Source: Paeniglutamicibacter sp. Y32M11 (lineage in GTDB: Bacteria > Actinomycetota > Actinomycetes > Actinomycetales > Micrococcaceae). From it: DNA of 64,000 bases. Made by a program: the position numbers and the translations under genes. The stretch covers positions 3,968,001-4,032,000 of the forward strand of contig NZ_CP079107.1 in NCBI RefSeq assembly GCF_019285735.1, written 5' to 3'. Below are positions 28,677 through 48,108 of this stretch, piece after piece (position 1 is the stretch's first letter; the number at the start of each line of letters is the position of its first letter). The notes below the pieces were generated by a model that was not told where the DNA came from, made no database searches, and saw only the letters and a list, made by a program, of their open reading frames with translations.

Positions 28677-29870
28677 ATGAACGCAGTCAGTTTGGGGGAC
28701 ACACGCCCGACAATTGAGGATCCGATGGCTTTCCGCAATGTTCTAGGACATTTCCCCACCGGAATTGTTCTCATTACTGGTATTGCCGCTGATGGTGAGC
28801 CCGTTGGCATGATCGTGGGATCTTTTACCTCGGTCTCACTCGCTCCGCCATTGGTGGGTTTCCTGCCAACGGTTAATTCCCAGACCTTCAAACGGCTGCG
28901 CACGGCAAAGTCCTTCTGCGTCAACGTACTGGCAGGAGACCAAGAAGATATTTGCCGCCGTTTCTCCGGTCGCGCCGAGAACAAATTTGACTCGGTAACT
29001 TGGACACCATCCCCTTCCGGTGCCCCGGTACTCGAGGGTGTTGTAGCCTTCATCGACTGCACCTTCGAATCGATCTCAGACGCCGGAGACCACCACATTG
29101 TCGTTGGCGCGGTACGAGAACTCCAGGTATGCCGTCCCGTGGCACCGCTACTGTTCTTCCAAGGCGGTTATGGTCAGTTTGCACCGATGTCATTGCATGC
29201 CCCCTTTGAAACGGACCTTATTGCCGGGGTGCGACTAGCAGAGCAGGGCCGGGTCGAAATGGACTGGCTTGCCAAGTCCCTAGATGCCGAATGCACGGCC
29301 ATGGCGGTGGTCAACGATCAGATGGCCGTCATGGTTGCTGGGACCGGTTCGTCCTGGGATGCCGAGGCACGGCTCGGGGAACGCATTCCGCTGATGCCTC
29401 CCATGGGTGAGCTATGCCTCGCTTGGGAGGACCAGGCAGCTATTCAGAAGTGGCTAGATCGGGCGTTGCCAAACGATGAATGTTCCCCGCATGAATACCG
29501 CGAACGACTACGGGCGGTACGCAAGCGCGGCTGGTCGGTGACCATGAAGAGTGACTACCAGGATGAAGAGGTCTTCGCCGCACTTCGCGAATATTCCTCG
29601 GGCCATTACACCCCCGCGCAGGAACGCCATATCCGCGAGGTTATTTCGCGAACCTCGAGCAGTTACGCTCCAATTACGCTGTTGGACGGAGAACTCTACG
29701 AGGTTGACTCGCTATTGGCTCCCGTTTGGGATTCGGTGGGCCAGGTTCGATTGGTGCTACGTATTACCCATTTGCCAAGCTCGGTCACCGCGCAGCAGAT
29801 CACCGCGTGGGCAGACCAGTTGATGCTCACGGCAACAGCCATAAGCGTCGCCCCGGCAGCTCGCGGCTAA
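28677..29870 (+). CDS. Flavin reductase fused to an IclR-like effector domain
   Basis: A 397-residue two-domain protein. Residues 14-172 are an HpaC/HsaB-type flavin reductase (FRNVLGHFPTGIVLIT, MIVGSFTSVSLAPPLVGFLPT, HHIVVGAVRELQV). Residues 178-395 resemble the effector-binding domain of IclR regulators (RVEMDWLAKSLDAECTAMAVV, LIPLMPPMGELCLAW-like segment at 396, RERLRAVRKRGWSV, LRITHLPSS) but without a DNA-binding region. The protein probably supplies reduced flavin to a two-component monooxygenase such as HsaA; the extra domain may sense a pathway compound. It is 49 bp after the aldolase, so probably in the same operon. Confidence 0.85.
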   Translation: MNAVSLGDTRPTIEDPMAFRNVLGHFPTGIVLITGIAADGEPVGMIVGSFTSVSLAPPLVGFLPTVNSQTFKRLRTAKSFCVNVLAGDQEDICRRFSGRAENKFDSVTWTPSPSGAPVLEGVVAFIDCTFESISDAGDHHIVVGAVRELQVCRPVAPLLFFQGGYGQFAPMSLHAPFETDLIAGVRLAEQGRVEMDWLAKSLDAECTAMAVVNDQMAVMVAGTGSSWDAEARLGERIPLMPPMGELCLAWEDQAAIQKWLDRALPNDECSPHEYRERLRAVRKRGWSVTMKSDYQDEEVFAALREYSSGHYTPAQERHIREVISRTSSSYAPITLLDGELYEVDSLLAPVWDSVGQVRLVLRITHLPSSVTAQQITAWADQLMLTATAISVAPAARG

Positions 29871-29881
29871 TCACCGAATAA

Positions 29882-31195
29882 TTATCGGCTCGTCAAGTCC
29901 AGGACGATGGTTCCATCCTGAACCTGACGAGCTACCCGGTACAACGCGGTGCTGATCAGATCCGCAAGCAGTGCCGGGTCCCAGATACGCTCCTCAATCT
30001 GTTTATTCAGCAGGCTACTTTCCAACAGCCGGAAAAAACACTCGGTAAAGTACTTAGCTAGATCCGCATGTTCGGGCTCTTCCAGCATGGGTGCAAACAT
30101 CTTTTGGAACCACGACATCGTCATTTCGTAGGCATCTTGAATCACGAGTTTAAGTTCTTGACGTCCCGCGTAAACCTGATCCGATCGCTGCAACAGCAGT
30201 AGTAATCCCAGCGCCAATACGCCACCACCGGAACTTCCATTCAGCGACGACAGGATATAACCGCGAGTGAGGACAGACCAGTCGCCGTCGGCCGGACGTG
30301 GGTGAGATAGCTGGCGGGTCAGGGCCCACCTCTGGCAAGAGTTCTCGATCACCGTAGCGATCAGCTCATCCTTGTCTTTGAAGAACCAATACAAGGAGCT
30401 TGCCGGCAACCCAGCTTTTTCACAGACCCGAGCAATCGTGACGCCGTCGTAGCCAAGTTCCATGATGACGTCTTTAGTTGCCCGAACAAATACTTCCCGG
30501 CTTCCGTCCGGGGTCATCACGAATGCTTGCGGCTCGGACGCGGGCAGTTCTTCCAGTGGCCTTTCTGCTGCAATTTCAACAACACGACGAGCGATCTCAT
30601 CAAGACACGCCGCAATTAGCTTGTTCAGCGGTTCGGCTTCTAAGCGTCTCAAGCCATCGAGGTTAAGCACTTCGGATTCCCTGATTCCAACGGTGAACTG
30701 GCCTAATAAGGTCGAGGCAAGGTCCTTTTGTTCCATGTCCGCGGGCCAGGTACGCTCCCACCACTGGGCTAACCATTCGACGCTTTCGCGCCGAATTTGC
30801 AAAAACCGGTCCCGTGCGAGGATTGGTTCTTGGGGGCGGGAAACGGCAAGTTGCAATCCCACACGCCAATATTCCATGTTTGCCCCCGCTGCAGGGGAAC
30901 GAATCAACTCCGCATACAAGTCGTCTCGGCGCACCGTGCTCGGAGGCGTGTCAAGCCAATTAGGCAATCGTGAAGCTTGTATCCGGTAGGTATGCTCCAG
31001 AGCCGCGGCGATTAAGCTTTCCTTGTTGGCGAAGTGCCAATAGATGGAACTTGCTGACACACCGGTGGCTCTACGCACCATGGCTAACGTCGTTCCCGCA
31101 TAGCCATGGTTAATGACCAACCGCATGGTTTCTTCTAGGATTCGAACCCGGGTTTCTTCACCCTGCAGATTCTTGCGGTCCGTTTTGCGCTGCAA
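29882..31195 (-). CDS. Tandem TetR-family regulator (two TetR units in one chain)
   Basis: A 437-residue protein containing two TetR repeats. The first DNA-binding region is residues 16-62 (ILEETMRLVINHGYAGTTL, VRRATGVSASSIYWHFANKESL). The second is at residues 233-280 (VFVRATKDVIMELGYDGVTI, VCEKAGLPASSLYWFFKDKDEL). Each is followed by an all-helical domain. Usual TetR length is about 200, so this is a head-to-tail duplication that may act as a pseudo-dimer. The start is TTG at 31195, with no in-frame ATG before the first helix. It lies between the hsa-like and ETF operons; its targets are not known. Confidence 0.85.
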   Translation of the reverse strand: MQRKTDRKNLQGEETRVRILEETMRLVINHGYAGTTLAMVRRATGVSASSIYWHFANKESLIAAALEHTYRIQASRLPNWLDTPPSTVRRDDLYAELIRSPAAGANMEYWRVGLQLAVSRPQEPILARDRFLQIRRESVEWLAQWWERTWPADMEQKDLASTLLGQFTVGIRESEVLNLDGLRRLEAEPLNKLIAACLDEIARRVVEIAAERPLEELPASEPQAFVMTPDGSREVFVRATKDVIMELGYDGVTIARVCEKAGLPASSLYWFFKDKDELIATVIENSCQRWALTRQLSHPRPADGDWSVLTRGYILSSLNGSSGGGVLALGLLLLLQRSDQVYAGRQELKLVIQDAYEMTMSWFQKMFAPMLEEPEHADLAKYFTECFFRLLESSLLNKQIEERIWDPALLADLISTALYRVARQVQDGTIVLDLTSR

Positions 31196-31436: not shown

Positions 31437-32768
31437 CTAGCGGCTAACCTTGCCAAAAAGCGAAGCGATGGGCGCAAGAATCAACGGTCGTGCCGCAAAC
31501 CAGCCACCCACAATGACTAACAGCGAGACAAAGAAAATCCAAAATCCGTACCAGTTAACCGCATCCTGACCGCCATACATGTGGTTCAAGTTGCGCAGCG
31601 CCCCGGTTGAAAGCACCAGCGCCACGTGCACGATGATGAATCCAACGAAGTAAAACATCACCGGCAGGTGGATGGCACGTGCGACCTCAATCGGATAGCA
31701 CTTGCTCAACCTCTGGGCTTTGTTTGGCCAAGCATTGGACATCCTAAATCCGGTAAGCGCTGCCAGCGGAGCAGCGATAAAGATTGTGGCGAAGTAGGCA
31801 AGGACCTGCAGGCTGTTGTAGTTAACCCATCCATTCTCGGTGGGCCAATCCAGCGAGGAATACTGCAATACTGCCGAGAGCGCGTTGGGGAAGACTTCCC
31901 AGCTTGTCGGAACGACCCGCATCCATTGCCCCGTGGCAATCAGTAGCACCACAAAAAACGCCCCATTGACCAGCCATAGGATATCCAGGGACTGGTGTAG
32001 CCAGAGGGTGATACCAATTTTCGTGGGATTTTTGCCCCATCGAGCCGTCCAGGTTGCCGGTGGACGACGTTGCGTGCGGACCTGCCAGCCCGAACGAATG
32101 ATTAGAACCATGAGGAAAATGTTGAAGAAGTGTTGCCAAGCAAGCCATGCAGGGAGTCCCACCGGCGCTTCGAGCGGCAATTCGGTCTCCCCTGGATACC
32201 GTGCCACAAAACTCTGTATCGATTCGGTAGTCATCAACCAGCGTGCAGTGAACACCACGACGGCAAGCAGTACCAGCAAAGCAATGGCCCACAAAGCTGC
32301 ACGCCCGCTCCTGCTGTTCCGCATCTCTTCAAACGCCCCGATCTCGCGTGTCGGTGCACTAGGACTTACCGGATTCTTCGTGCCGCTCGTTGCCTTCGCC
32401 CGAGGCACGACGGTCACCGGCGCAGCGGTGCCAGCCACCTCACCAGCGGGTGCCAAAACCTCAGCGGCATTGTTGTGCTGGCTTGTTCCAGTGGTGTCTC
32501 CGGTGACACGTGGCAGCCCTCGGCGTCCGGTTTGCGGCGGCTCCGGGGTCGATGTTTTGCCGGATTCGGTTTCCACGCTACGTGCCGGCTCCGAGCCTTC
32601 GTCCGTGGCGGATCCGTTCTCGGTTGGTCGTGGCAAGCCACGCCGCCTCGGCGCGGCGGCCGGTGCCGGAATTGGTATCGGTTCTTGCGACGGAAGCTGT
32701 TGAGCGGCCGGGGTCTCGGAGCCTGCAGCGCCGGCGCTCGAAGTACGTGGGAGTCCCTGTCTGGCCAT
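31437..32768 (-). CDS. Cytochrome b-like membrane protein with disordered GLPR-repeat N terminus
   Basis: A 443-residue protein. Residues 1-155 are low-complexity Pro/Ala/Thr-rich and carry three copies of an RxGLPR motif at 3-8, 42-47 and 82-87, about 40 residues apart. Residues 157-438 have five or six transmembrane helices. His213, His258, His367 and His381 lie in helices in a pattern suited to two b-type haems, as in the cytochrome b561/b6 N-terminal fold. It is the last gene of an operon with etfA (5-bp gap), etfB, a MaoC hydratase and an SDR. By context it may pass electrons from reduced ETF to the quinone pool; this is inference, as standard ETF:quinone oxidoreductase is a different protein. 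Confidence 0.8.
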   Translation of the reverse strand: MARQGLPRTSSAGAAGSETPAAQQLPSQEPIPIPAPAAAPRRRGLPRPTENGSATDEGSEPARSVETESGKTSTPEPPQTGRRGLPRVTGDTTGTSQHNNAAEVLAPAGEVAGTAAPVTVVPRAKATSGTKNPVSPSAPTREIGAFEEMRNSRSGRAALWAIALLVLLAVVVFTARWLMTTESIQSFVARYPGETELPLEAPVGLPAWLAWQHFFNIFLMVLIIRSGWQVRTQRRPPATWTARWGKNPTKIGITLWLHQSLDILWLVNGAFFVVLLIATGQWMRVVPTSWEVFPNALSAVLQYSSLDWPTENGWVNYNSLQVLAYFATIFIAAPLAALTGFRMSNAWPNKAQRLSKCYPIEVARAIHLPVMFYFVGFIIVHVALVLSTGALRNLNHMYGGQDAVNWYGFWIFFVSLLVIVGGWFAARPLILAPIASLFGKVSR

Positions 32769-32773
32769 TTGGT

Positions 32774-33760
32774 TTAGCCTCGCTTTGCTTCGATTGCGGC
32801 GACCAGCTGGGGCACCACGGTAAAGATGTCACCAACCACGCCGAAGTCGGCGATTTCAAAGATTGGCGCGTCCGGGTCCTTGTTGATCGCGATGATTGTC
32901 TTAGAGGTCTGCATGCCAGCACGGTGCTGGATGGCCCCGGAAATGCCTAAAGCAATGTAGAGCTGCGGGGCAACGGTGACACCGGTCTGACCCACCTGCA
33001 TGGCCTGCGGGACGTATCCGGCATCAACGGCGGCGCGTGATGCACCGATGGCGCCGCCCAGAGCGTCGGCGAGTCCCTCGACCATCGAGAAGTTCTCTCC
33101 CGAGCCAAGGCCTCGGCCACCGGAGACAACGATGTCGGCGCCGCGCAGCTCCGGGCGTGAAGAGGCCGCAGCGGTTTCCCGGTAAGCGGTAATTGTTGCG
33201 TCCGGGGTTCCGGATGCCACAACCGGAAACTGCTGAACATTCGAGGGCTGCGCGGCGGTCCGCAGATCCGAAGAGCCTTGGCGCAAGGTAATGACCAACG
33301 CGCCGCTGCTGGCTGCGGAGTCCACTAGATAGGCGCCGCCGTAGACCGAATGATGGGCAAAGACGCCCTCTTCGTCCCGCGCGATGCCTACCGCATCGAG
33401 GGCCAGGGCCGAACCGCTTCGTGCCGCGAAGCGGGCCGCTGCGTCGCGTCCGCGCATGGAGTTTGCCGTGAGTACCGCGTCGGGAGCCACTCTGGAGGCA
33501 GCAGCAGCCAACGCATCAACGGCGGGTACCACCACTGAGCTTGCAAGCTCATCGGTATCGACGACCAATACCTGCGAGGCGCCGAGGGCGGCAAGTTCGG
33601 TTCCGAGGCGTTCGGTATTGCCCGCCGGGGCGAGCACCAATGCCACGGCGGTGCCCACCGATGCTGCGGCGCCGATGAGCTCTGCAGCGCCGGAACGGAG
33701 CTGGCCCGACGGGGAAACATCGACGAGCACAAGAATTGAATTCGCTGGGTAGCCGTTCAT
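32774..33760 (-). CDS. etfA: Electron transfer flavoprotein alpha subunit
   Basis: A 328-residue ETF alpha subunit. The C-terminal FAD domain is clear: [44 protein letters not shown], then [29 protein letters not shown] and [23 protein letters not shown] accepts electrons from acyl-CoA dehydrogenases; five FadE-type proteins are encoded within 16 kb. Its start overlaps the etfB stop by 4 bases. A second housekeeping ETF may exist elsewhere; here the pair appears dedicated to the steroid island. Confidence 0.95.
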
Positions 33761-34548
33761 GCTGCGCGTCCTTTGATGAGTTGGTTCTGGGCAAGGAATT
33801 CTGCGATTTGGTTTCCAGCGTCCCCGGCATCTTCAATGCGAATGCCGGCGTTGCGAGCCGGACGTTGCGCCGCTGAAATCACGATGGATCTGGCGGATTC
33901 TTCGTCAAGGACGATGCCAAGCTGGGCCAGGTTGAGGGTCTCAAACGGCTTCTTCTTGGCTGCCATGATGCCCTTGAAGTTAGGGAATCGTGCATCGGGT
34001 AGGGCTTCGGTCACCGAGATTACACCGGGCAGGTCAATGCTCGCCTCGTAGCTATCAAACTCGGTGTTGCAGCTTCCGGAAGCCGTCAGTTCATTGATCG
34101 TCACGGCACCCAGTGATGCCAGTCCTGCTACGCCAAGTAGCTCGGTGAGCATTGAGGGCAGGGCTCCGCCGCCACCATCGGTCGAGGCATTGCCGGCGAT
34201 GAGCAGATCGAATCCAATGTGCCGGGTGGCTGCCGCAATTACCTGTGCGGTAAGGGTTAGATCGGCACCCAAGAGCGCCGGATCCTGCACGTGCACGGCA
34301 CGGTCCGCGCCCATGGCAAGGCCCTTACGCAGGGTTGCCGGCAGGGTTCCGCCCTGGCCCATGGTGAGCAATATGACCTCGGTGTCCGCATTGTTCTCAC
34401 GGTGGTTCAAGGCGACTTCAAGCGCGCGTTCGGTGATTTCGTCGAGCACCGGTTCGCTTGCCGACCGGTTCAACAGACCGGTCTCCAGATCCAGGGTGCG
34501 TTCACCATAGGTATCTGGAACTTCCTTCATCAATACGATAATTTTCAC
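33757..34548 (-). CDS. etfB: Electron transfer flavoprotein beta subunit
   Basis: A 263-residue ETF beta subunit that pairs with EtfA and binds [27 protein letters not shown] is the family N terminus; [27 protein letters not shown] and [24 protein letters not shown] follow, with [28 protein letters not shown] near the C terminus. It is 69 bp downstream of the MaoC gene and overlaps etfA by 4 bases. Confidence 0.95.
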
Positions 34549-34617
34549 GCTGTGTCCTTCCTAAACTTTTCAGTGTCCAAGCCCTACCGGGCTGCGATGT
34601 TTTGCGGCCTCGCGCGG

Positions 34618-35433
34618 TTAGCTAAATACGGCGAGGCCTTCGGATATCACCGTGCGTTCTCCCACCGCGGCTTCAAAGCTGCCGCCGTCCCAAATACGCA
34701 CCTCGATCTCGTCCCCGGGGAAAACTACCCCGGAGAAGCGGCCCGCAAACTCGGTAAGATCCGCCGGGTGTGCGCCAACCAAGCTGGCCAGCGGCAGCGT
34801 GGTTGCTGCCAGCGAAGCCAGTCCGTGAAGGATCGGGCGTTCCTGCCCAATGCGTGCGGCAGCCTGTGGGTCGATATGGATGTGGTGTTTGTCCCCGAGC
34901 AGGCGATAAAGCGCAGCCTGGTTTGGTTGGGTCTGCACGCTTGCCACTCCGCGTGGCGCTGCGCTGGGCACTGCCGATTTACCGGGGCCGCGTTCGCCAC
35001 CAAAGCCACCAAAGTCAGGGGCAAAAATCTGCCAGGTGGCCTGGAAATAGTCACATTCAACAATGATGTTGAAAACCGCGGCGCTGCCCTTGTCCCACAC
35101 TTCGCCAACCCGTGCGTTGAGCCGCAGTTCTCCGGAGCGCGGCAGTTCCTTGGCCACAAGCAATTCCTGGGAGCCGTGCACCGAGCGATTGTCGAACGCA
35201 CCGGCCTGGGCCATCACGTCGGGGGCCCACTGGGCCAGGGTCAATCCGAAGGACGGAAGCACTCGTAACCGGTCTTCAAAGACCAGCTCTAGATCGTTGG
35301 CCGAGGCACCAATGGCCAGCGCATAAAGAATTGCCTCGTCCTGCGTGTAGCTTACGGTGCGCTCGCCAAGGTGTTTCCCGGCCCAGGCACCGGAGCCAAG
35401 CACTGCCTCGGGCAGCATAGTTCCCGCGCTCAT
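34618..35433 (-). CDS. MaoC-like enoyl-CoA hydratase 2
   Basis: A 271-residue double-hotdog protein. The hydratase-2 motif is at residues 176-203: YRLLGDKHHIHIDPQAAARIG, ending PILHGL, with catalytic Asp181 and His186; the usual Asn-Pro of the motif is replaced by His-His. The N-terminal hotdog (residues 20-140) is degenerate, as in eukaryotic and mycobacterial type-2 hydratases. It overlaps the upstream SDR by 4 bases. This pairing resembles the hydroxyacyl dehydrogenase/hydratase-2 set used in sterol side-chain or ring beta-oxidation; the exact substrate is unknown. Confidence 0.88.
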   Translation of the reverse strand: MSAGTMLPEAVLGSGAWAGKHLGERTVSYTQDEAILYALAIGASANDLELVFEDRLRVLPSFGLTLAQWAPDVMAQAGAFDNRSVHGSQELLVAKELPRSGELRLNARVGEVWDKGSAAVFNIIVECDYFQATWQIFAPDFGGFGGERGPGKSAVPSAAPRGVASVQTQPNQAALYRLLGDKHHIHIDPQAAARIGQERPILHGLASLAATTLPLASLVGAHPADLTEFAGRFSGVVFPGDEIEVRIWDGGSFEAAVGERTVISEGLAVFS

Positions 35434-36359
35434 GATGTTGCCACCGGGACCGGAGCCGCGCCGTATACGGGTTCCGGGGTGAGCGAACGCGCCAGCAGTT
35501 CCTCAATGGCCAATCCGGCGGAGACCGCATCCCAACGTTCTCCAGCATCGTGAGCTGGACCGTGATTCCAGCCCTCCTCGATGCAGATCTTTCCACCCTC
35601 GATTTCAATGACACGCCCGGTGACCTCGCCGGAAGTGCTTCCCGCCAGCCAGGCGACGATGGGCGAAACATTTGCCGGGTGCATAGCATCAAACCCGCTC
35701 TCGGGCACTGCCATGGCCTGCGCGAAGGCACCCTCGGTCATCCGGGTTCGCGCTGCGGGAGCAATCGCATTAACACGCACCCCATAACGGGCAAGCTCGT
35801 GAGCGGCAACCAGCGTCAACCCCGCGATTCCCGCCTTGGCAGCGGAGTAGCTGGCCTGCCCCACGCTACCTTGCAGGCCGGCTCCCGAGGAGGTGTTGAT
35901 GACCCGGGCGTCGGGTGTGCGACCGGCCTTGGCTTCGTTGCGCCAGTACTCACTGGCGTGGCGCAATGGTGCAAAGTGACCCTTGAGGTGAACGCGGATG
36001 ACCGCGTCCCATTCTTCTTCGGAGGTATTCACCAGCATGCGGTCTCGGACAAAGCCGGCGTTATTCACCAAGATATCCAGCCGACCATAGGTCTCGATGG
36101 CCTGGTGCACCATGGCGCCGGCCTGTTCAAAGTCTGCAACATCGGCACCATTGGCAATTGCTTCGCCACCAGCGGCGCGGATTAACTCGACCACCTCATG
36201 CGCCGGACTCGATGCCTCAACAACACCGTCCAGAGTGGTACTGAGGTCATTGACAACCACTTTGGCGCCCTGGCGCGCAAGCTCCAATGCATGTTCTCGT
36301 CCCAACCCACGGCCGGCGCCGGTCACAATGGCGACCCGTCCCTCACAAATGCCTGTCAT
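35430..36359 (-). CDS. Short-chain dehydrogenase, (3R)-hydroxyacyl-CoA dehydrogenase-like
   Basis: A 309-residue SDR. The cofactor motif VAIVTGAGRGLGREHALELARQGAKVVVND, followed by an insertion with DLSTTLDG, is the pattern of the multifunctional-enzyme type-2 (HSD17B4-like) dehydrogenases. NNAGFVRD, NTSSGAGLQGSVGQASYSAAKAG give the catalytic Ser, Tyr and Lys. The extended C terminus (about 50 residues) is also typical. The ATG at 36359 follows GGAGGAAGG; the longer upstream frame overlaps the promoter region and is rejected. It is divergent from echA20, like Rv3548c/Rv3549c in M. tuberculosis. Confidence 0.9.
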   Translation of the reverse strand: MTGICEGRVAIVTGAGRGLGREHALELARQGAKVVVNDLSTTLDGVVEASSPAHEVVELIRAAGGEAIANGADVADFEQAGAMVHQAIETYGRLDILVNNAGFVRDRMLVNTSEEEWDAVIRVHLKGHFAPLRHASEYWRNEAKAGRTPDARVINTSSGAGLQGSVGQASYSAAKAGIAGLTLVAAHELARYGVRVNAIAPAARTRMTEGAFAQAMAVPESGFDAMHPANVSPIVAWLAGSTSGEVTGRVIEIEGGKICIEEGWNHGPAHDAGERWDAVSAGLAIEELLARSLTPEPVYGAAPVPVATS

Positions 36360-41849: not shown

Positions 41850-42653
41850 TTATGCCTGTTGGCTGCTTACCGGCACAACTTCACCGGTCATGTACGAGGA
41901 ATAGTCGCTGGCCAGGAAGACCATGACGTTGGCAATTTCCCAAGGTTCGGCTGCACGCCCGAATGCTTCACGTGAGGTGAGCTGCTCGAGCAGTTCCTCG
42001 GAGGTGACCTTGGCCAGGAATGGGTGCATGGCTAGGGACGGGGCCACCGCATTGATGCGGATTCCGTGTGGAGCAACGTCCAACGCCGCGGAACGGGTCA
42101 GCGCCATGACACCCGCCTTCGCCGCAGCGTAGTGGGCCTGCCCTTCTTGGGCACGCCAGCCGATGACAGACGCGTTGTTGATGATGACGCCCTTGGTATT
42201 GTTCCTGACCATGCGCTGGCTTGCCGCGCGGACCGAACGGAAGGTCCCGGTCAGCGTGACATTCAGGACCTTATCCCACTGGTCGTCTTCCATCTCGAGG
42301 ATGGAAGCGGTACCCCCGAGCCCGGCATTGTTGATCATGACGTCGACCCCGCCGGCGTCTTCTGCGACGTCCAAGAGGGCTTGGACCTGCGCTTCAACGG
42401 TGACGTCGCATACCGCGAAGCGCACACGTTCGGCACCGAATTCTGCCCCTAGTTCGAGTGCTGATGCTTCGAGTCTTCCGGCATGGGTGTCCCCCAAGAC
42501 CACCAGTGCAGCGCCCTCCTCGAGACAGCGGCGCGCGGCCGCTGCTCCGATCCCAGCCCCTGCCGCGGCGGTGATGACCACGCGGCGCCCGGTAAGCAGG
42601 CCATGGGCTTGAACGTACTCTGGAGCTGGTTGTGCCATGCGTGTCACTGTCAT
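41850..42653 (-). CDS. ipdF: Short-chain dehydrogenase IpdF
   Basis: A 267-residue SDR. The cofactor motif is unusual, VVITAAAGAGIGAAAARRC, with Ala replacing the usual TGGxxG glycines; this variant is shared with IpdF (Rv3559c). NNAGLGGTASILEMEDDQWDKV, NNASVIGWRAQEGQAHYAAAKAGVMALTR and the C-terminal MTGEVVPVSSQ also match. IpdF oxidises the 5-hydroxyl of 5-OH-HIP-CoA-type intermediates. It overlaps the fadE30 gene by 4 bases. Confidence 0.9.
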   Translation of the reverse strand: MTVTRMAQPAPEYVQAHGLLTGRRVVITAAAGAGIGAAAARRCLEEGAALVVLGDTHAGRLEASALELGAEFGAERVRFAVCDVTVEAQVQALLDVAEDAGGVDVMINNAGLGGTASILEMEDDQWDKVLNVTLTGTFRSVRAASQRMVRNNTKGVIINNASVIGWRAQEGQAHYAAAKAGVMALTRSAALDVAPHGIRINAVAPSLAMHPFLAKVTSEELLEQLTSREAFGRAAEPWEIANVMVFLASDYSSYMTGEVVPVSSQQA

Positions 42654-43819
42654 ACTCGTGCCTCCTTGGGTAGGCCGAGCACACGCTCGGCAATAACGTT
42701 TCGCTGGATTTCATCCGAACCGCCGTAGAGGGTGTCGGCACGGCTAAAGAGATAGAGAGCTTGAAGCTCATCGAGCTGGTACGGGGCTTCGGCGACTGTT
42801 AGACCACCGGCCCCGGCAACTGCCATGGCCAGTTCGCCCAGCGAGCGGTGCCATGGCGCCCACAGCAGTTTGGTGATTGAGGCTTCGATGCCCTGTTCGC
42901 CGCTGAGTGTGCGTAGTCCGTGCATGCGCAGCATATCCAGCCCCATGTGGGCTTGGACGATCTTGTCCTGGATAAGCGGGTCATTGATGGCACCATTGCG
43001 ACGGGCTAGATCGATGATGACCTGAAGCTCGCGCTGGAAAGCAATCTGTTGGGCAAGTGTGGACACTCCGCGTTCAAATCCGAGTGTTCCCATGGCCACC
43101 GACCATCCGGCACCTGCTTCGCCGACGACTAGATCTTCGTCGGTTGTGGCACCGTCAAAGAAGACCTCATTGAATTCGGAGGTACCGGTCAGCTGCAGGA
43201 TCGGCTTGATTTCCACCCCTTGCTGATCCATCGGGACCAGCAAGTACGACAGTCCCTGGTGCTTTTTTGACCCCACTTCGGTGCGTGCAATGACAAAGCA
43301 CCAGTTCGCCGTGTGCGCCAGCGACGTCCAGACCTTCTGCCCATCAATGATCCATTTGCCGTCTTCCAGCCGTGCCTTGGTAGCAACCGCGGCAAGGTCC
43401 GAACCGGCACCGGGTTCCGAATATCCCTGACACCAGAGATCTTCAACGGCAATAATGCGGGGCAGGAAACGGCCCTGTTGTTCCGGGGTGCCAAACGCAA
43501 TCAGCGTGGGGCCAAGAAGCTCCTCGCCGAGGTGGTTGACGCGAGCCGGTGCGTTGGATCGCGCGTATTCCTCATGGAATATGACCTGTTGCTGCAGGCT
43601 CAGGCCACGTCCACCGTATTCCTTGGGCCAGCTGACACAGCTCCAGCCGTGTGCCGCGAGGTGGCGGTTCCATTGTAGGCGTTCTTCAAAGGCTTCATGC
43701 TCTCGGCCCGACCCGCCCAAGCCGCGCAGCTGCGCAAAATTCCCAACAAGATTTGATTCGAGCCATTGGCGGATCTCTTGCCGAAACTCGTTGTCTTGAA
43801 CCGAATAGTTCAAATCCAC
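42650..43819 (-). CDS. fadE30: Acyl-CoA dehydrogenase FadE30
   Basis: A 389-residue acyl-CoA dehydrogenase. WCQGYSEPGAGSDLAAV and WIIDGQKVWTSLAHTANWCFVIART are flavin-binding segments, and LYGGSDEIQRNVIAERVLGLP is the C-terminal signature. FadE30 introduces the first double bond in the HIP-CoA propionate chain. GTG at 43819 is chosen because GAGGGG lies 6 bases before it; the ATG nine codons upstream lacks a ribosome site. The gene is divergent from the echA-fadE31-32-33 operon, with a palindromic operator between them. Confidence 0.9.
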   Translation of the reverse strand: MDLNYSVQDNEFRQEIRQWLESNLVGNFAQLRGLGGSGREHEAFEERLQWNRHLAAHGWSCVSWPKEYGGRGLSLQQQVIFHEEYARSNAPARVNHLGEELLGPTLIAFGTPEQQGRFLPRIIAVEDLWCQGYSEPGAGSDLAAVATKARLEDGKWIIDGQKVWTSLAHTANWCFVIARTEVGSKKHQGLSYLLVPMDQQGVEIKPILQLTGTSEFNEVFFDGATTDEDLVVGEAGAGWSVAMGTLGFERGVSTLAQQIAFQRELQVIIDLARRNGAINDPLIQDKIVQAHMGLDMLRMHGLRTLSGEQGIEASITKLLWAPWHRSLGELAMAVAGAGGLTVAEAPYQLDELQALYLFSRADTLYGGSDEIQRNVIAERVLGLPKEARV

Positions 43820-43879
43820 GGCTTTCCCCTCACTCTCGATTTCCATTGGTCAGATGTTCAAACTCCGCTTATGCTAGCA

Positions 43880-43957: not shown

Positions 43958-44815
43958 ATGAGCGAGAACAACATTCAAGACGTCGTCACCTACGAGGTGC
44001 GCGGAGCCACGGCGATCGTGAGGCTAAACCGGCCCGAATATCGAAATGCACAAAATTCGAAGGTGACCTACGCGCTGGATTCGGCGTTCACCCAGGCAGT
44101 CAACGACGACGCGGTGAAGGTAATCGTGCTGGCCGGAAACGGGAAGCATTTCAGCGCCGGACATGACATTGGAACCCCCGAGCGAGACGCCGACCAAAGC
44201 TTCGAGCGCAAGGCAGTGATGTGGTGGGATCATGTGGGTACCGAGGGCGTTGACTCCAGGTTTGCCCGGGAATCCGAGGTCTATCTGGGGATGTGCCGAC
44301 GCTGGCGCGAAATCCCCAAACCCTTGATCGCCATGGTTCAGGGTGCCTGCATTGCCGGCGGGCTCATGCTGGCGTGGTCATGCGATTTCATCATCGCCAG
44401 CGAAGATGCCTTCTTCTCCGACCCGGTAGTACGCATGGGCATTCCCGGCGTCGAATACTTTGCCCACCCCTGGGTCATGAACCCGCGGGCCGCCAAGGAA
44501 TTCCTCTTCACCGGGGATCGTTTTAGCGCACAGCGCGCCCACGACTTGGGCATGGTGAACCATGTGGTTCCGGCCGAAAAACTCGAGGAGACCACACTTG
44601 AGATGGCAGAGCGCATCGGCGCCATGCCGCGACTGGGCCTTGCCCTAGCCAAGAAGGCAGTCAATCAATCCGAGGACCTGCAGGGCATGCGTGCCGGCAT
44701 GGACTCGGTTTTTGGGCTGCACCACGCGGCCCATGCACACAACGCAGAGGTCGGCAAGGATTCGCTGGCCGGAATGGGAGCCAAAAGCATGCGTGAGGCG
44801 GCCGCACGATCATGA
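43958..44815 (+). CDS. Enoyl-CoA hydratase/isomerase family protein
   Basis: A 285-residue crotonase. FSAGHDIGTPERD is the first oxyanion-hole segment, followed by an insertion rich in Trp/Arg (MWWDHVGTEGVDSRFARES), then VQGACIAGGLMLAWSCDFIIASEDAFFSDPVVRMGIPG. The insertion and the lack of the usual two Glu make a simple hydratase assignment uncertain. The stop overlaps the fadE31 start (ATGA). It heads the fadE31-32-33 operon, so it probably acts on a HIP-derived CoA ester. Confidence 0.88.
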   Translation: MSENNIQDVVTYEVRGATAIVRLNRPEYRNAQNSKVTYALDSAFTQAVNDDAVKVIVLAGNGKHFSAGHDIGTPERDADQSFERKAVMWWDHVGTEGVDSRFARESEVYLGMCRRWREIPKPLIAMVQGACIAGGLMLAWSCDFIIASEDAFFSDPVVRMGIPGVEYFAHPWVMNPRAAKEFLFTGDRFSAQRAHDLGMVNHVVPAEKLEETTLEMAERIGAMPRLGLALAKKAVNQSEDLQGMRAGMDSVFGLHHAAHAHNAEVGKDSLAGMGAKSMREAAARS

Positions 44816-46005
44816 ACACCGACACCATGAACCTTGATTTAACCGAGGAACAAATTGCCTTTGCCGCGCAGGCTCGTGCCTGGCTCACCGAGCATGTTCC
44901 GGTAACACCACTGCCCTCCATGGATACCGCCGCGGGCTTTGCCGCCCACCGCGAATGGGAGGCCGAACTTGCCCGCGCCGGCTGGTCAGTGGTTTCGTGG
45001 CCCGAGGAATTCGGTGGCCGCGGAGCCGGACTCATCGAATGGGTGCTCTTCGAGGAAGAGTACTACCGTGCGGGGGCGCCAACACGCGTCGCACAAAACG
45101 GCATTTCCCTCCTCGCGCCCATCCTCTTTGGGCATGGTACCGACGCACAGCGCGAACGTTTCCTGCGCCCCATGACCGATGGTTCACTCATCTGGGCTCA
45201 GTCCTGGTCCGAACCCGGTTCCGGCAGCGACCTGGCGTCCATCCGAAGCACCGCACGACGCGATGCGGAACGTGGCGGTTGGATTCTCAACGGCCAAAAA
45301 ACCTGGAGTTCGCGTGCCCCTTGGGCAGATCGCGGATTCGGGCTCTTCCGTTCGGACCCCGAGGCACAGCGTCACCGCGGCCTCACCTACTTCCTCTTCC
45401 CCCTCGATGCCGATGGCATCACCATCCGTCCTATCGCGCAGCTTGATGGCACCACGGGATTCGCCGAAATCTTCTTTGACGACGTCTTTGTTGCCGATGA
45501 AGACGTGCTGGGCGACCCGGGTGATGGGTGGCGGGTAGCCATGAGCACTGCCGGTAATGAGCGCGGGCTTTCACTACGTTCCCCGGGGCGCTTCTGCGCC
45601 GCCACCGACCGTTTAATTGAACTCTGGCACACCCATCAGGACCAGGAACCATATGCGCAGGATGCGGTGGTGGACGCGTGGATCAAATCCGAGGCCTACC
45701 GCCTATACACCTGGGGTACCGTCAGCACCCTGCAAGACGGCGGCGATGTGGGAGCCGAGGGCAGCGTGAACAAGGTGTTCTGGTCTGAGCTGGACATTGC
45801 CCTGCACGGTACCGCACTGTCCCTGTTGGGTCCCAAGGCAGAACTCCGTGGTCCCGAGGCCGTGTCCGGCGGTCGCTGGATCGAGGACTACATCTTCTCC
45901 CTTGGCGGTCCCATCTATGCGGGAACCAACGAAATTCAACGCAACATCATCGCAGAACGTCTACTTGGCCTGCCCCGTGGCGGCGACGGAAGGAAAACGT
46001 CATGA
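44812..46005 (+). CDS. fadE31: Acyl-CoA dehydrogenase FadE31-like
   Basis: A 397-residue acyl-CoA dehydrogenase. WAQSWSEPGSGSDLASIRSTA and WILNGQKTWSSRAPWADRGFGLFR bind FAD and substrate; IYAGTNEIQRNIIAERLLGLPRG is the C-terminal signature. In mycobacteria, FadE31, FadE32 and FadE33 are encoded together in the KstR2 regulon, and the gene order here is the same. Starts and stops of the three genes overlap, so subunits of a heteromeric enzyme are likely (inference). Confidence 0.88.
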   Translation: MNTDTMNLDLTEEQIAFAAQARAWLTEHVPVTPLPSMDTAAGFAAHREWEAELARAGWSVVSWPEEFGGRGAGLIEWVLFEEEYYRAGAPTRVAQNGISLLAPILFGHGTDAQRERFLRPMTDGSLIWAQSWSEPGSGSDLASIRSTARRDAERGGWILNGQKTWSSRAPWADRGFGLFRSDPEAQRHRGLTYFLFPLDADGITIRPIAQLDGTTGFAEIFFDDVFVADEDVLGDPGDGWRVAMSTAGNERGLSLRSPGRFCAATDRLIELWHTHQDQEPYAQDAVVDAWIKSEAYRLYTWGTVSTLQDGGDVGAEGSVNKVFWSELDIALHGTALSLLGPKAELRGPEAVSGGRWIEDYIFSLGGPIYAGTNEIQRNIIAERLLGLPRGGDGRKTS

Positions 46006-46988
46006 AATTCGTGATTAGCGACGAACAACGGGCCCTCGCGGAGGCCATTGATCAGGTCATCGAGGGCGCCGGCGGCACCGGAATTGCACGCACCTGGGCC
46101 GTCGGCGAGCTGGTTCCCGGTCAAGAACTCTGGTCACAGCTCGCCGAACTCGGCCTCTTCGGTTTATGCGTCGATGAGACCGAGGGCGGCATGGGAGGCA
46201 CCCCTGTGGATCTCGTGGTGGCCTTCGAACGGTTGGGTTACCACGCGGTTCCCGGACCCTACCTCGAATCCGCGGCGCTGCTCCCCGACTTGGTGGACCC
46301 CACCATTCGCGCGGGGCTTGTGGATGGCTCGGTCATCGCCACCGCCGCAGTTCCCGGACTACTCACCTATGCGCTCGATTCCGCAGTCAGCACCCACAGC
46401 TACATTGTGAACCCGGATTCCATCTGCCCTGCCAGGGCGGGCAACCCAATGGATTCCATCGATGAGACCCGCACGCTCAGCGAGTTGCATGCGGCAGATT
46501 CCGCAGTCACGCGTGATCCGCAACTGGTGGCTACCGCCATCGACAGGGCAACGCTCTGCTGTGCCGCGGTCTTGTTGGGCGCCGGCGAACGACTGCTCCA
46601 CGAAGCTATCGAGTACGCAAAGATCCGCCGGCAATTCGACCGCGCCATTGGTGAGTATCAGGCGCTCAAGCACCAGCTGGCCGACGTGCGGGTGGCACTG
46701 ACCTTTGCCCGTCCATTGATCAATGGCGCGGCGCTTGACCTGGGGAGCCTGACTGGCCCGCGCAGTGTCTCGGCCGCCAAGGTTGCCGCGGGCGACGCCG
46801 CACTGCTTGCCGCCCGCATAGCGCTGCAAGTTCATGGGGCCATTGGCTACACCCAGGAACACGATCTGAGTCTGTGGATTACCCGCGTGCATGCACTTTT
46901 GGGCGCCTGGGGCACCGCTCGCTATCATCGCAACCGCGTGGCGTCCTTCATCCTGTCTCCCGTTGCCCAACTAGTCCCGAGTGTGTGA
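46002..46988 (+). CDS. fadE32: Acyl-CoA dehydrogenase subunit FadE32-like
   Basis: A 328-residue short acyl-CoA dehydrogenase. The N-terminal helical domain (ISDEQRALAEAIDQVI, ELGLFGLCVDETEGGMGGTPVDLVVAFERLGYHAVPGP) and C-terminal domain (EYAKIRRQFDRAIGEYQALKHQLADV, ALQVHGAIGYTQEHDLSLWI) are present, but the middle beta domain is shortened. This is the pattern of the partner subunit in heteromeric actinobacterial steroid FadEs. It overlaps fadE31 by 4 bases. Confidence 0.85.
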   Translation: MKFVISDEQRALAEAIDQVIEGAGGTGIARTWAVGELVPGQELWSQLAELGLFGLCVDETEGGMGGTPVDLVVAFERLGYHAVPGPYLESAALLPDLVDPTIRAGLVDGSVIATAAVPGLLTYALDSAVSTHSYIVNPDSICPARAGNPMDSIDETRTLSELHAADSAVTRDPQLVATAIDRATLCCAAVLLGAGERLLHEAIEYAKIRRQFDRAIGEYQALKHQLADVRVALTFARPLINGAALDLGSLTGPRSVSAAKVAAGDAALLAARIALQVHGAIGYTQEHDLSLWITRVHALLGAWGTARYHRNRVASFILSPVAQLVPSV

Positions 46989-46995
46989 GGACGTC

Positions 46996-48108
46996 ATGGA
47001 TTTTTCACTAACCGACGAACAAAACGAACTGGTCAAGACGCTTCACGCGGTGCTGGGTCGCCACGCCGGTTCTGCGGCCGTCCGGCAGGGCGCCGCATCG
47101 GAGCTTGGCTATGACAAGGAACTCTGGCGTCTGCTTGCCGAGGAGATCGGAGTTGCCTCACTGGCCATTCCCGAAGAGTACGGCGGCGCGGGCTGCAGCT
47201 GGATCGAAACAGGTCTTTCCTTGGAGGTGCTGGGCTACCATCTGGCACCCAGTCCGCTATTGGCCTCCGGGGTTCTGGCAACAGCTACACTGCTGGAGTC
47301 GGGGGATGCCGATGCCAAGGAACGGCTGCTGCCAGGGATCGCCGAGGGCAGCAGCATCGCGACGCTGGCATGGGCCAACCGGCAGGGCCAGTGGGGCACC
47401 ACGAGCAGCGACATCGCCGCAACGCATCACGAGCAGTGGACGCTTAATGGAACCGCAACCCTGGTACTCGACGGGCAATACGCAGACACCGTCTTGGCTG
47501 TTGCTTCCACTCCGGCGGGCATCGGGATATTTGAGGTGCTCGATACCCAGAGCATTGATCGGGTCCACACCCCGGCCATGGACACCACACTGAGTTTTGC
47601 AACCCTGCATTTCGAAAATATCGCCGCCCGACCACTCCTGTTGGATGCAGCTGAGACGCTGGAAAGAATCCGGGACATTGCCTTGGTTGCGCGCGCTTGC
47701 CTGCAGGCTGGTACCGCGCGACGAGGTCTGGACATGACGGTCGAGTATTCGACTCAACGGGTCCAGTTCGGCCGACAGATTGGTTCCTTCCAGGCACTCA
47801 AGCACCGCATGGCAGACATGTTGGTGCAGGTCGAGACCTCGCGCACGGCGGCCTGGGCCGCTTCCTGGTCCGCCGGCACCGGGGCCGCGGACTTGCCCGA
47901 GCGAGCGGCATCTGCCGCAGCGTGGTGCTCCGATGCGCTTGACCACATCGCCTCCGAATGCGTGCAGTTGCATGGTGGCATTGCCATCACCTGGGAGCAT
48001 GATGCCCAACTGCTGTTCAAGCGGGCCCACGCAACGGCTCAGCTCTTTGGTCAGGCACGCTACCACCGGCAGCGTTTGGCGACCTTAGTGGGGATTCGCG
48101 CGGCCTAG
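46996..48108 (+). CDS. fadE33: Acyl-CoA dehydrogenase subunit FadE33-like
   Basis: A 370-residue acyl-CoA dehydrogenase. FSLTDEQNELVKTLHAVL, VASLAIPEEYGGAGCSWIETGLSLEVLGYHLAPSP, EYSTQRVQFGRQIGSFQALKHRMADM and CVQLHGGIAITWEHDAQLLFKRAHATAQLFG are clear. The ATG at 46996 follows GAGG; an in-frame GTG five codons earlier overlaps the fadE32 stop. It ends the operon; its beta domain lacks an obvious catalytic Glu in the usual site, consistent with a heteromeric partner. Confidence 0.85.
   Translation: MDFSLTDEQNELVKTLHAVLGRHAGSAAVRQGAASELGYDKELWRLLAEEIGVASLAIPEEYGGAGCSWIETGLSLEVLGYHLAPSPLLASGVLATATLLESGDADAKERLLPGIAEGSSIATLAWANRQGQWGTTSSDIAATHHEQWTLNGTATLVLDGQYADTVLAVASTPAGIGIFEVLDTQSIDRVHTPAMDTTLSFATLHFENIAARPLLLDAAETLERIRDIALVARACLQAGTARRGLDMTVEYSTQRVQFGRQIGSFQALKHRMADMLVQVETSRTAAWAASWSAGTGAADLPERAASAAAWCSDALDHIASECVQLHGGIAITWEHDAQLLFKRAHATAQLFGQARYHRQRLATLVGIRAA

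Follow-up and report, generated by a model that had tools for sequence, protein, structure and literature searches.

An etf operon ending in a cytochrome b-like gene

We analyzed a 64,000-bp stretch of the Paeniglutamicibacter sp. Y32M11 genome, hereafter the window (contig NZ_CP079107.1, positions 3,968,001 to 4,032,000 of the forward strand), which holds an operon that combines both subunit genes of electron transfer flavoprotein (ETF) with a gene for a cytochrome b-like membrane protein. This cytochrome, as argued below, is probably the enzyme that re-oxidizes ETF. The source genome is a single contig of 4.17 Mb. All five genes of the operon lie on the minus strand, and are given here in window coordinates from upstream to downstream:

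35430..36359, minus strand: short-chain dehydrogenase/reductase (SDR) family oxidoreductase (PF00106/PF13561; NF005861 above cut-off)
34618..35433, minus strand: MaoC-type enoyl-CoA hydratase (PF22622 and PF01575)
33757..34548, minus strand: etfB, ETF beta subunit (PF01012)
32774..33760, minus strand: etfA, ETF alpha subunit, binding flavin adenine dinucleotide (FAD) (PF01012 and PF00766)
31437..32768, minus strand: di-haem cytochrome b-like membrane protein of 443 residues (PF01292), the proposed ETF:menaquinone oxidoreductase

The coordinates bear out the tight leftward operon reported in the preliminary description, including the overlaps of 4 bases at the SDR/MaoC and etfB/etfA junctions and the gap of 5 bases between etfA and the cytochrome gene.

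The cytochrome gene accompanies etfA in related genomes

Among 99 related genomes we obtained 86 cytochrome matches, of which 73 were near full length and were kept, while 13 partial ones were dropped. In 53 of the 73, the cytochrome lies no more than 3 kb downstream of a same-strand etfA gene, the interval between the matches ranging from -145 to 1373 bases; counted from the other side, 53/136 etfA genes in this set have a cytochrome so placed. The family is thus not found mostly away from etf genes, an outcome that the preliminary description had named as fatal to its proposal. A second sample consisted of named genomes, limited to the best 80 of 587 relatives found and spanning Arthrobacter, Glutamicibacter, Microbacterium, Agromyces, Cryobacterium, Subtercola, Georgenia and others. 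Here etfA was directly upstream of the cytochrome in 69 of the 80 loci; of the remaining 11, 4 are truncated by the end of a contig, and in 5 etfBA lies several kb farther downstream. Because the gene order recurs in both samples (53/73 and 69/80), the operon layout is more than chance. The cytochrome alignment (A1) has 26 rows, with some loci omitted as near-copies or for stops inside the match.

The Y32M11 genome itself contains four etfBA pairs, and a cytochrome paralogue follows three of them, that of the window included. The two modules away from the window are found at G000:C1:3383752-3384762 and 3725194-3726078. The fourth pair has no cytochrome, its next gene being, by eye, LmbE-type deacetylase-like. 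When genes neighbouring the modules were scanned, acyl-CoA dehydrogenase was the commonest family (9/42 downstream, 6/42 upstream); the 42 and 42 open reading frames (ORFs) had been chosen by length from 59 and 65 candidates, and some may be in the wrong frame. Only 3 of the 80 named loci have the steroid genes of the window beside them. Given this low count and the two further modules of the same genome, the module is general and not bound to steroids, and we dropped, as a general statement, the idea that the route is dedicated to steroids. Separately, an unannotated plasmid record labelled Stenotrophomonas maltophilia (NZ_CP090424.1, 11943-12740) contains a stretch 61% identical to the cytochrome; so far outside the group, a transfer or a labelling error is possible.

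The cytochrome and EtfD exclude each other in two genome sets

We then asked which known ETF oxidants are encoded alongside the cytochrome. ETF:quinone oxidoreductase (ETF-QO; PF05187) had no match anywhere in the Y32M11 genome, in a search that did not cover FixC itself, and in the 99 relatives it gave weak matches in 2 genomes with open frames of only 101 to 172 residues. For EtfD, proteins with CCG domains were collected, the large ones were read, and 14 EtfD proteins were aligned (A2) and used as a profile; one relative from A2 that was scanned with Pfam showed two CCG stretches together with 4Fe-4S matches. The profile had no match in the Y32M11 genome, where the CCG proteins found were one of 273 residues (open frame) and one FAD-linked oxidase.

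Among the 99 genomes, 25 matched the EtfD profile: 16 strongly (E below 1e-100) and 9 through weak partial matches, which we dropped. The cytochrome was present in 56 genomes, strong EtfD in 16 and both in none. Restricted to the 85 genomes with etfA, 55 carried the cytochrome only, 15 EtfD only, none both and 15 neither. By family code, the cytochrome occurred in five families, EtfD in nine and both in none. We repeated the comparison in a class-wide set of 197 genomes, which shares some genomes with the first. The cytochrome profile matched 22 of them, comprising 10 full-length matches and 12 partial matches outside the order. EtfD matched 177, of which 170 were strong (E below 1e-60) and 7 weak ones were dropped. 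Strong EtfD was found in 170 of the 187 genomes without a full-length cytochrome, and no EtfD match at E≤0.001 was found in any of the 10 genomes with one. Fisher values for the exclusion were 2.3e-7 and 4.4e-10, with kinship ignored. The preliminary description had taken ETF-QO as the standard route of ETF re-oxidation; of the known enzymes, EtfD is the usual one among the 99 relatives (16 genomes), with ETF-QO weakly matched in 2.

Predicted fold, haem ligands and membrane orientation

The cytochrome passes PF01292 (prokaryotic cytochrome b561) with 33.6 bits against a cut-off of 30.1, and no other Pfam family matched it at E≤0.001. Its predicted structure contains six helices. Histidines are present at residues 98, 213, 258, 367, 381 and 396. 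The four that had been singled out as helix-located (213, 258, 367 and 381) do fall within long predicted helices and are invariant in 120/120 free-standing relatives; their proposed roles are as follows:

32130..32132, minus strand: His213, in helix 206-232, proposed ligand of the periplasmic-side haem
31995..31997, minus strand: His258, in helix 253-279, proposed ligand of the cytoplasmic-side (ETF-facing) haem
31668..31670, minus strand: His367, in helix 360-387, proposed ligand of the cytoplasmic-side haem
31626..31628, minus strand: His381, proposed ligand of the periplasmic-side haem

His381 follows His367 by 14 residues in one helix, a spacing also seen in HyaC (hydrogenase-1 cytochrome b) and FdnI (formate dehydrogenase-N gamma). 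The top structural matches of the predicted cytochrome were these same two proteins, both di-haem, and a viral structure library gave no match. Mean counts of lysine plus arginine were 7.3, 3.9 and 2.9 for loops 2-3, 4-5 and the C end, versus 0.5, 1.1 and 1.1 for the other loops. Because the positive charges concentrate on the first three of these segments, the model suggests a core inverted relative to HyaC and FdnI, with the donor-side haem toward the cytoplasm, where ETF is. Taken together, the protein is probably a di-haem cytochrome b whose core is inverted and whose function resembles that of EtfD, its haems assigned from the histidines and its fold class and topology predicted.

A disordered N-terminal tail with a repeated motif

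Ahead of the helices lies a tail that is predicted from loop charges to be cytoplasmic and that carries three copies of a short motif:

32349..32768, minus strand: disordered N-terminal tail, about residues 1-140
32745..32762, minus strand: motif copy 1, RQGLPR (residues 3-8)
32628..32645, minus strand: motif copy 2, RRGLPR (residues 42-47)
32508..32525, minus strand: motif copy 3, RRGLPR (residues 82-87)

The predicted local distance difference test score (pLDDT) is below 50 across most of residues 1-132. The consensus of the motif is (L/V)RRGLPR(V/T)PGGEPWPPAG. One to four copies were found in 66 of 92 distinct etf-adjacent cytochromes, three copies in 39, with motif starts spaced 33 to 161 residues; this set is biased toward close kin of the window protein, since the 80 best matches supplied 57 of the 66. 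The motif occurred in none of 23 lone cytochromes and in 2 of 5 at sequence ends. With the two-branch pattern used for counting, 37 of 167 copies differ by one residue. A shuffle test per protein was weak (24/64 tails beat all 100 shuffles), hence the case for the motif rests on conservation between proteins. Tail-bearing copies, including that of the window, cluster on the tree, with 7 changes of state in one tree and 3 in another, and both other paralogues of the Y32M11 genome fall in the tailless group. EtfA lineages split almost like tail-bearing and tailless cytochromes. We also considered whether RRGLPR marks other proteins of the genome and rejected the idea: the DNA pattern had 12 matches, two of them in the tail, versus 7 for a reversed control, which is no clear enrichment.

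Excerpts of a recent report (EMBO J 2026, PMC13083937) describe the C-terminal tail of EtfD as disordered with interspersed repeats and show ETF bound there in an AlphaFold3 model. In our own EtfD loci (L218-L237 and L171), C-terminal tails carried lineage-specific repeats such as KGLGIAAGAKRPG, GGSLFDL, NAAPSWE and VADPWDDED. On one repeated 5-mer, 14 of 18 scored long tails beat all 200 shuffles, although in three of the 14 the 5-mer is of low complexity. The 20 EtfD regions were mostly picked for long open frames and hence yield no frequency; one tail was unreadable and one locus tailless, and in a set of 15 EtfD loci the tail was short in 14. None of the readable EtfD tails shares the cytochrome motif, and their motifs vary by lineage. 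Proteins of two families with the same proposed job can both bear a disordered repeat tail, and by analogy the cytochrome tail may bind ETF.

Molybdopterin-fused relatives and lone copies

Matches of the class-wide search outside the order proved to be cytochrome b domains fused to another domain. Same-family cytochromes b with a C-terminal molybdopterin domain were found at L151-L162, L216 and L217 (PF00174 in 8/8 scanned, the rest judged by length), and plasmid relatives are annotated as "molybdopterin-dependent oxidoreductase". The fused relatives, the nearest ones outside the order in that search, share the helix plan and the same four histidines with the window family (14/14). They lack Arg231 and Arg342, present in 119/120 and 120/120 of the free-standing group, and none of the 14 loci has etfA upstream (most flanks 1.5 kb, 2 at an end). 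The window cytochrome, unlike them, has no PF00174 and stops after helix 6. By the same predicted topology, their molybdopterin domain would be cytoplasmic.

In the trees the fused relatives form one group against the free-standing cytochromes (support 99 and 100). When the trees are rooted on the former, lone copies branch off first among the free-standing cytochromes, some branches being long and their placement unsure. The association with ETF may therefore have been acquired later, after a lone state. Among 15 lone-copy neighbourhoods that we read, one cytochrome is followed, by eye, by an acyl-CoA-dehydrogenase-like protein, and the others lie near different kinds of genes. A further copy, on the Arthrobacter plasmid NZ_CP084558.1 (L240), is convergent with an adjacent gene for malate:quinone oxidoreductase.

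Genes surrounding the operon

The window operon is located among genes that resemble those of steroid ring degradation. Thiolases, a CoA-transferase, a flavin reductase and a protein of the nitronate-monooxygenase type are encoded there, as is an acetaldehyde dehydrogenase next to a gene that, by eye, is aldolase-like. Five acyl-CoA dehydrogenase genes had been reported nearby; Pfam recovers four among 35 scanned ORFs of the window, and a tblastn search of the whole window with these four revealed no fifth at E≤1e-5:

42650..43846, minus strand: acyl-CoA dehydrogenase (Pfam), a likely electron donor to ETF
44812..46005, plus strand: acyl-CoA dehydrogenase (Pfam)
46002..46988, plus strand: acyl-CoA dehydrogenase (Pfam)
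46981..48108, plus strand: acyl-CoA dehydrogenase (Pfam)

Just downstream of the cytochrome gene, 29882-31195 on the minus strand encodes a regulator of 437 residues whose single chain contains two TetR_N domains; it is retained in three related steroid loci (L061, L063 and L068). The flavin reductase domain of the ORF at 28677-29870 (plus strand) covers residues 23-167, and the remaining ~200 residues have no Pfam match at E≤1e-8; a fused partner for a ring monooxygenase is possible.

Proposed function and alternative explanations

We propose, with good though incomplete confidence, that the cytochrome is a haem-only membrane ETF:menaquinone oxidoreductase that stands in for EtfD in Micrococcaceae, Microbacteriaceae and some neighbours. 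ETF would be reduced by acyl-CoA dehydrogenases and would then dock at the cytoplasmic face of the cytochrome. Electrons would then pass one by one from ETF to the His258/His367 haem, on to the His213/His381 haem and finally to menaquinone, which we infer as the acceptor. Haem alone would carry the electrons, in a protein without flavin or iron-sulfur (Fe-S) cluster. In the tail-bearing group, to which the window protein belongs, the cytoplasmic RRGLPR..GGEPWPP tail probably tethers ETF or its partners. An alternative route from ETF to quinone, as first suggested for this operon, is therefore supported by gene adjacency, exclusion with EtfD, the missing ETF-QO match in the same genome and the predicted topology; with its dedicated role set aside, the suggestion is probably right and wider than first stated.

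A bolder version, which we find possible but doubtful, would make the cytochrome a third class of ETF dehydrogenase: a cytochrome-only, inverted di-haem b protein that is kin to the membrane part of a molybdopterin oxidoreductase, has displaced EtfD, could use proton motive force for an uphill step and would hold ETF by a repeat tail of an origin independent of the EtfD tail. Di-haem succinate:menaquinone reductases carry out uphill transfer driven by proton motive force. As two haems would span the membrane here, the uphill step from acyl-CoA to menaquinone could be driven likewise. Excerpts of PMC3582634 give -10 mV for crotonyl-CoA/butyryl-CoA (another estimate being -125 mV) and -74 mV for menaquinone.

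A number of observations weigh against the proposed oxidoreductase. In the 99 genomes, 20 of the 73 cytochromes lie away from etfA, and four genomes with the cytochrome (G209, G286, G080 and G230; loci L201-L204) show no etfA match, so that some members probably have another partner. Given these genomes and the lone copies with other neighbours, the link to ETF is not strict across the entire family. Conversely, 15 of the 85 etfA genomes have neither the cytochrome nor a strong EtfD match. Four of the dropped weak EtfD matches (E 7.6e-19 to 4.3e-4) are in cytochrome genomes (G034, G040, G083 and G085), the matching protein of G083 reading, by eye, unlike EtfD. The Fisher values are overstated, because kinship was ignored and the 10 cytochrome genomes of the class-wide set belong to two families. 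The motif-bearing tail is absent from 26 of the 92 etf-adjacent copies. Foldseek alone found no PDB match at E≤0.001, a sequence search of the PDB found none at E≤10, and hhalign of the cytochrome against single HyaC and FdnI sequences was insignificant. Finally, direct electron transfer from flavin to haem is not known for any ETF dehydrogenase.

Other explanations were also weighed. The cytochrome could be the quinone-side subunit only, with an unlinked Fe-S protein or flavoprotein subunit taking electrons from ETF and relaying them to the haem, as would fit FdnI and HyaC, its top structural matches, which pair with an Fe-S subunit, and also EtfD, which passes electrons via four Fe-S clusters (excerpts of PMC13083937). 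However, Pfam detected no Fe-S gene in the operon, no ferredoxin-type family is among the 25 families listed per neighbour scan (of 38 and 31), and the CCG proteins of the genome, in a search that left other Fe-S proteins aside, are only the 273-residue protein and the FAD-linked oxidase; we regard this arrangement as unlikely. Slightly less likely still is a cytochrome b of general use that faces the cytoplasm and accepts electrons from several soluble donors, ETF among them, its adjacency to etf reflecting co-inherited sets of fatty-acid genes. Relatives outside the order that are fused to a molybdopterin domain (8/8 scanned), the four genomes without etfA, lone copies near other kinds of genes and the early branching of lone copies all agree with it, but adjacency to etfA holds over two large groups whose further neighbours differ, and a full-length cytochrome never co-occurs with strong EtfD in either genome set.

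Electron flow might also run in reverse, the cytochrome serving to reduce ETF at the expense of menaquinol or proton motive force, be it for a reductive step or for electron bifurcation. A haem pair predicted to span the membrane would allow either direction; acyl-CoA dehydrogenase and other beta-oxidation genes among the neighbours, and the lack of an ETF-QO-type match (PF05187, FixC itself not searched) in the genome, make this very improbable in our view. We give even less credence to a cytochrome unrelated to ETF oxidation, for example a redox sensor or haem store, with a missed enzyme oxidizing ETF: the etfA genomes with neither enzyme suggest that another route, or ETFs needing none, may exist, but the conserved gene order, the way the cytochrome segregates together with EtfA and its mutual exclusion with EtfD speak against it.

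If the proposed ETF:menaquinone oxidoreductase is real, it would explain ETF re-oxidation in a widespread group of actinobacteria (Arthrobacter, Microbacterium and kin) where neither EtfD nor ETF-QO is found, would assign a role to proteins so far annotated only as "cytochrome b/b6 domain-containing protein", and would add to the known ETF-oxidizing enzymes one that has neither flavin nor Fe-S cluster. Direct tests are possible by way of the tail motif and the two proposed haems.

Comparison with known systems

Among the titles and abstract openings listed in literature searches, none ties ETF to such a cytochrome in these bacteria, which does not in itself show its absence from print, and the excerpts of PMC6176080, PMC3582634 and PMC3578206 do not describe one. 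EtfD and its homologues (we compared FadF, DgcB and the S. wolfei DUF224 protein) come closest. EtfD is a membrane protein with haem b, as the cytochrome probably is, and has the job proposed for the latter. Mycobacterial EtfD has a long disordered tail with interspersed repeats (excerpts of PMC13083937), and many copies of the cytochrome bear a disordered repeat tail as well. The same excerpts describe EtfD as a five-helix protein with one haem, two [4Fe-4S] domains and two CCG domains behind the membrane part, relaying electrons through four Fe-S clusters, whereas the cytochrome has six predicted helices, four haem-type histidines and no Pfam Fe-S domain. The tail is N-terminal in the cytochrome and C-terminal in EtfD, and the motifs differ. 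As the Fe-S domains that define EtfD are missing, the cytochrome is not an EtfD member; a cut-down EtfD was likewise ruled out, given that it has no Fe-S domain and belongs to a different Pfam family.

ETF-QO (ETF:ubiquinone oxidoreductase, FixCX) is a flavin and Fe-S protein. It shares with the cytochrome the proposed job only, and PF05187 is absent from the latter. Proteins of the HyaC/FdnI type have a four-helix core, a cytoplasmic N terminus and their donor on the periplasmic side, and work with an Fe-S subunit. The cytochrome differs from them in having six helices, not four, and its neighbour is ETF, while theirs is a periplasmic Fe-S enzyme.

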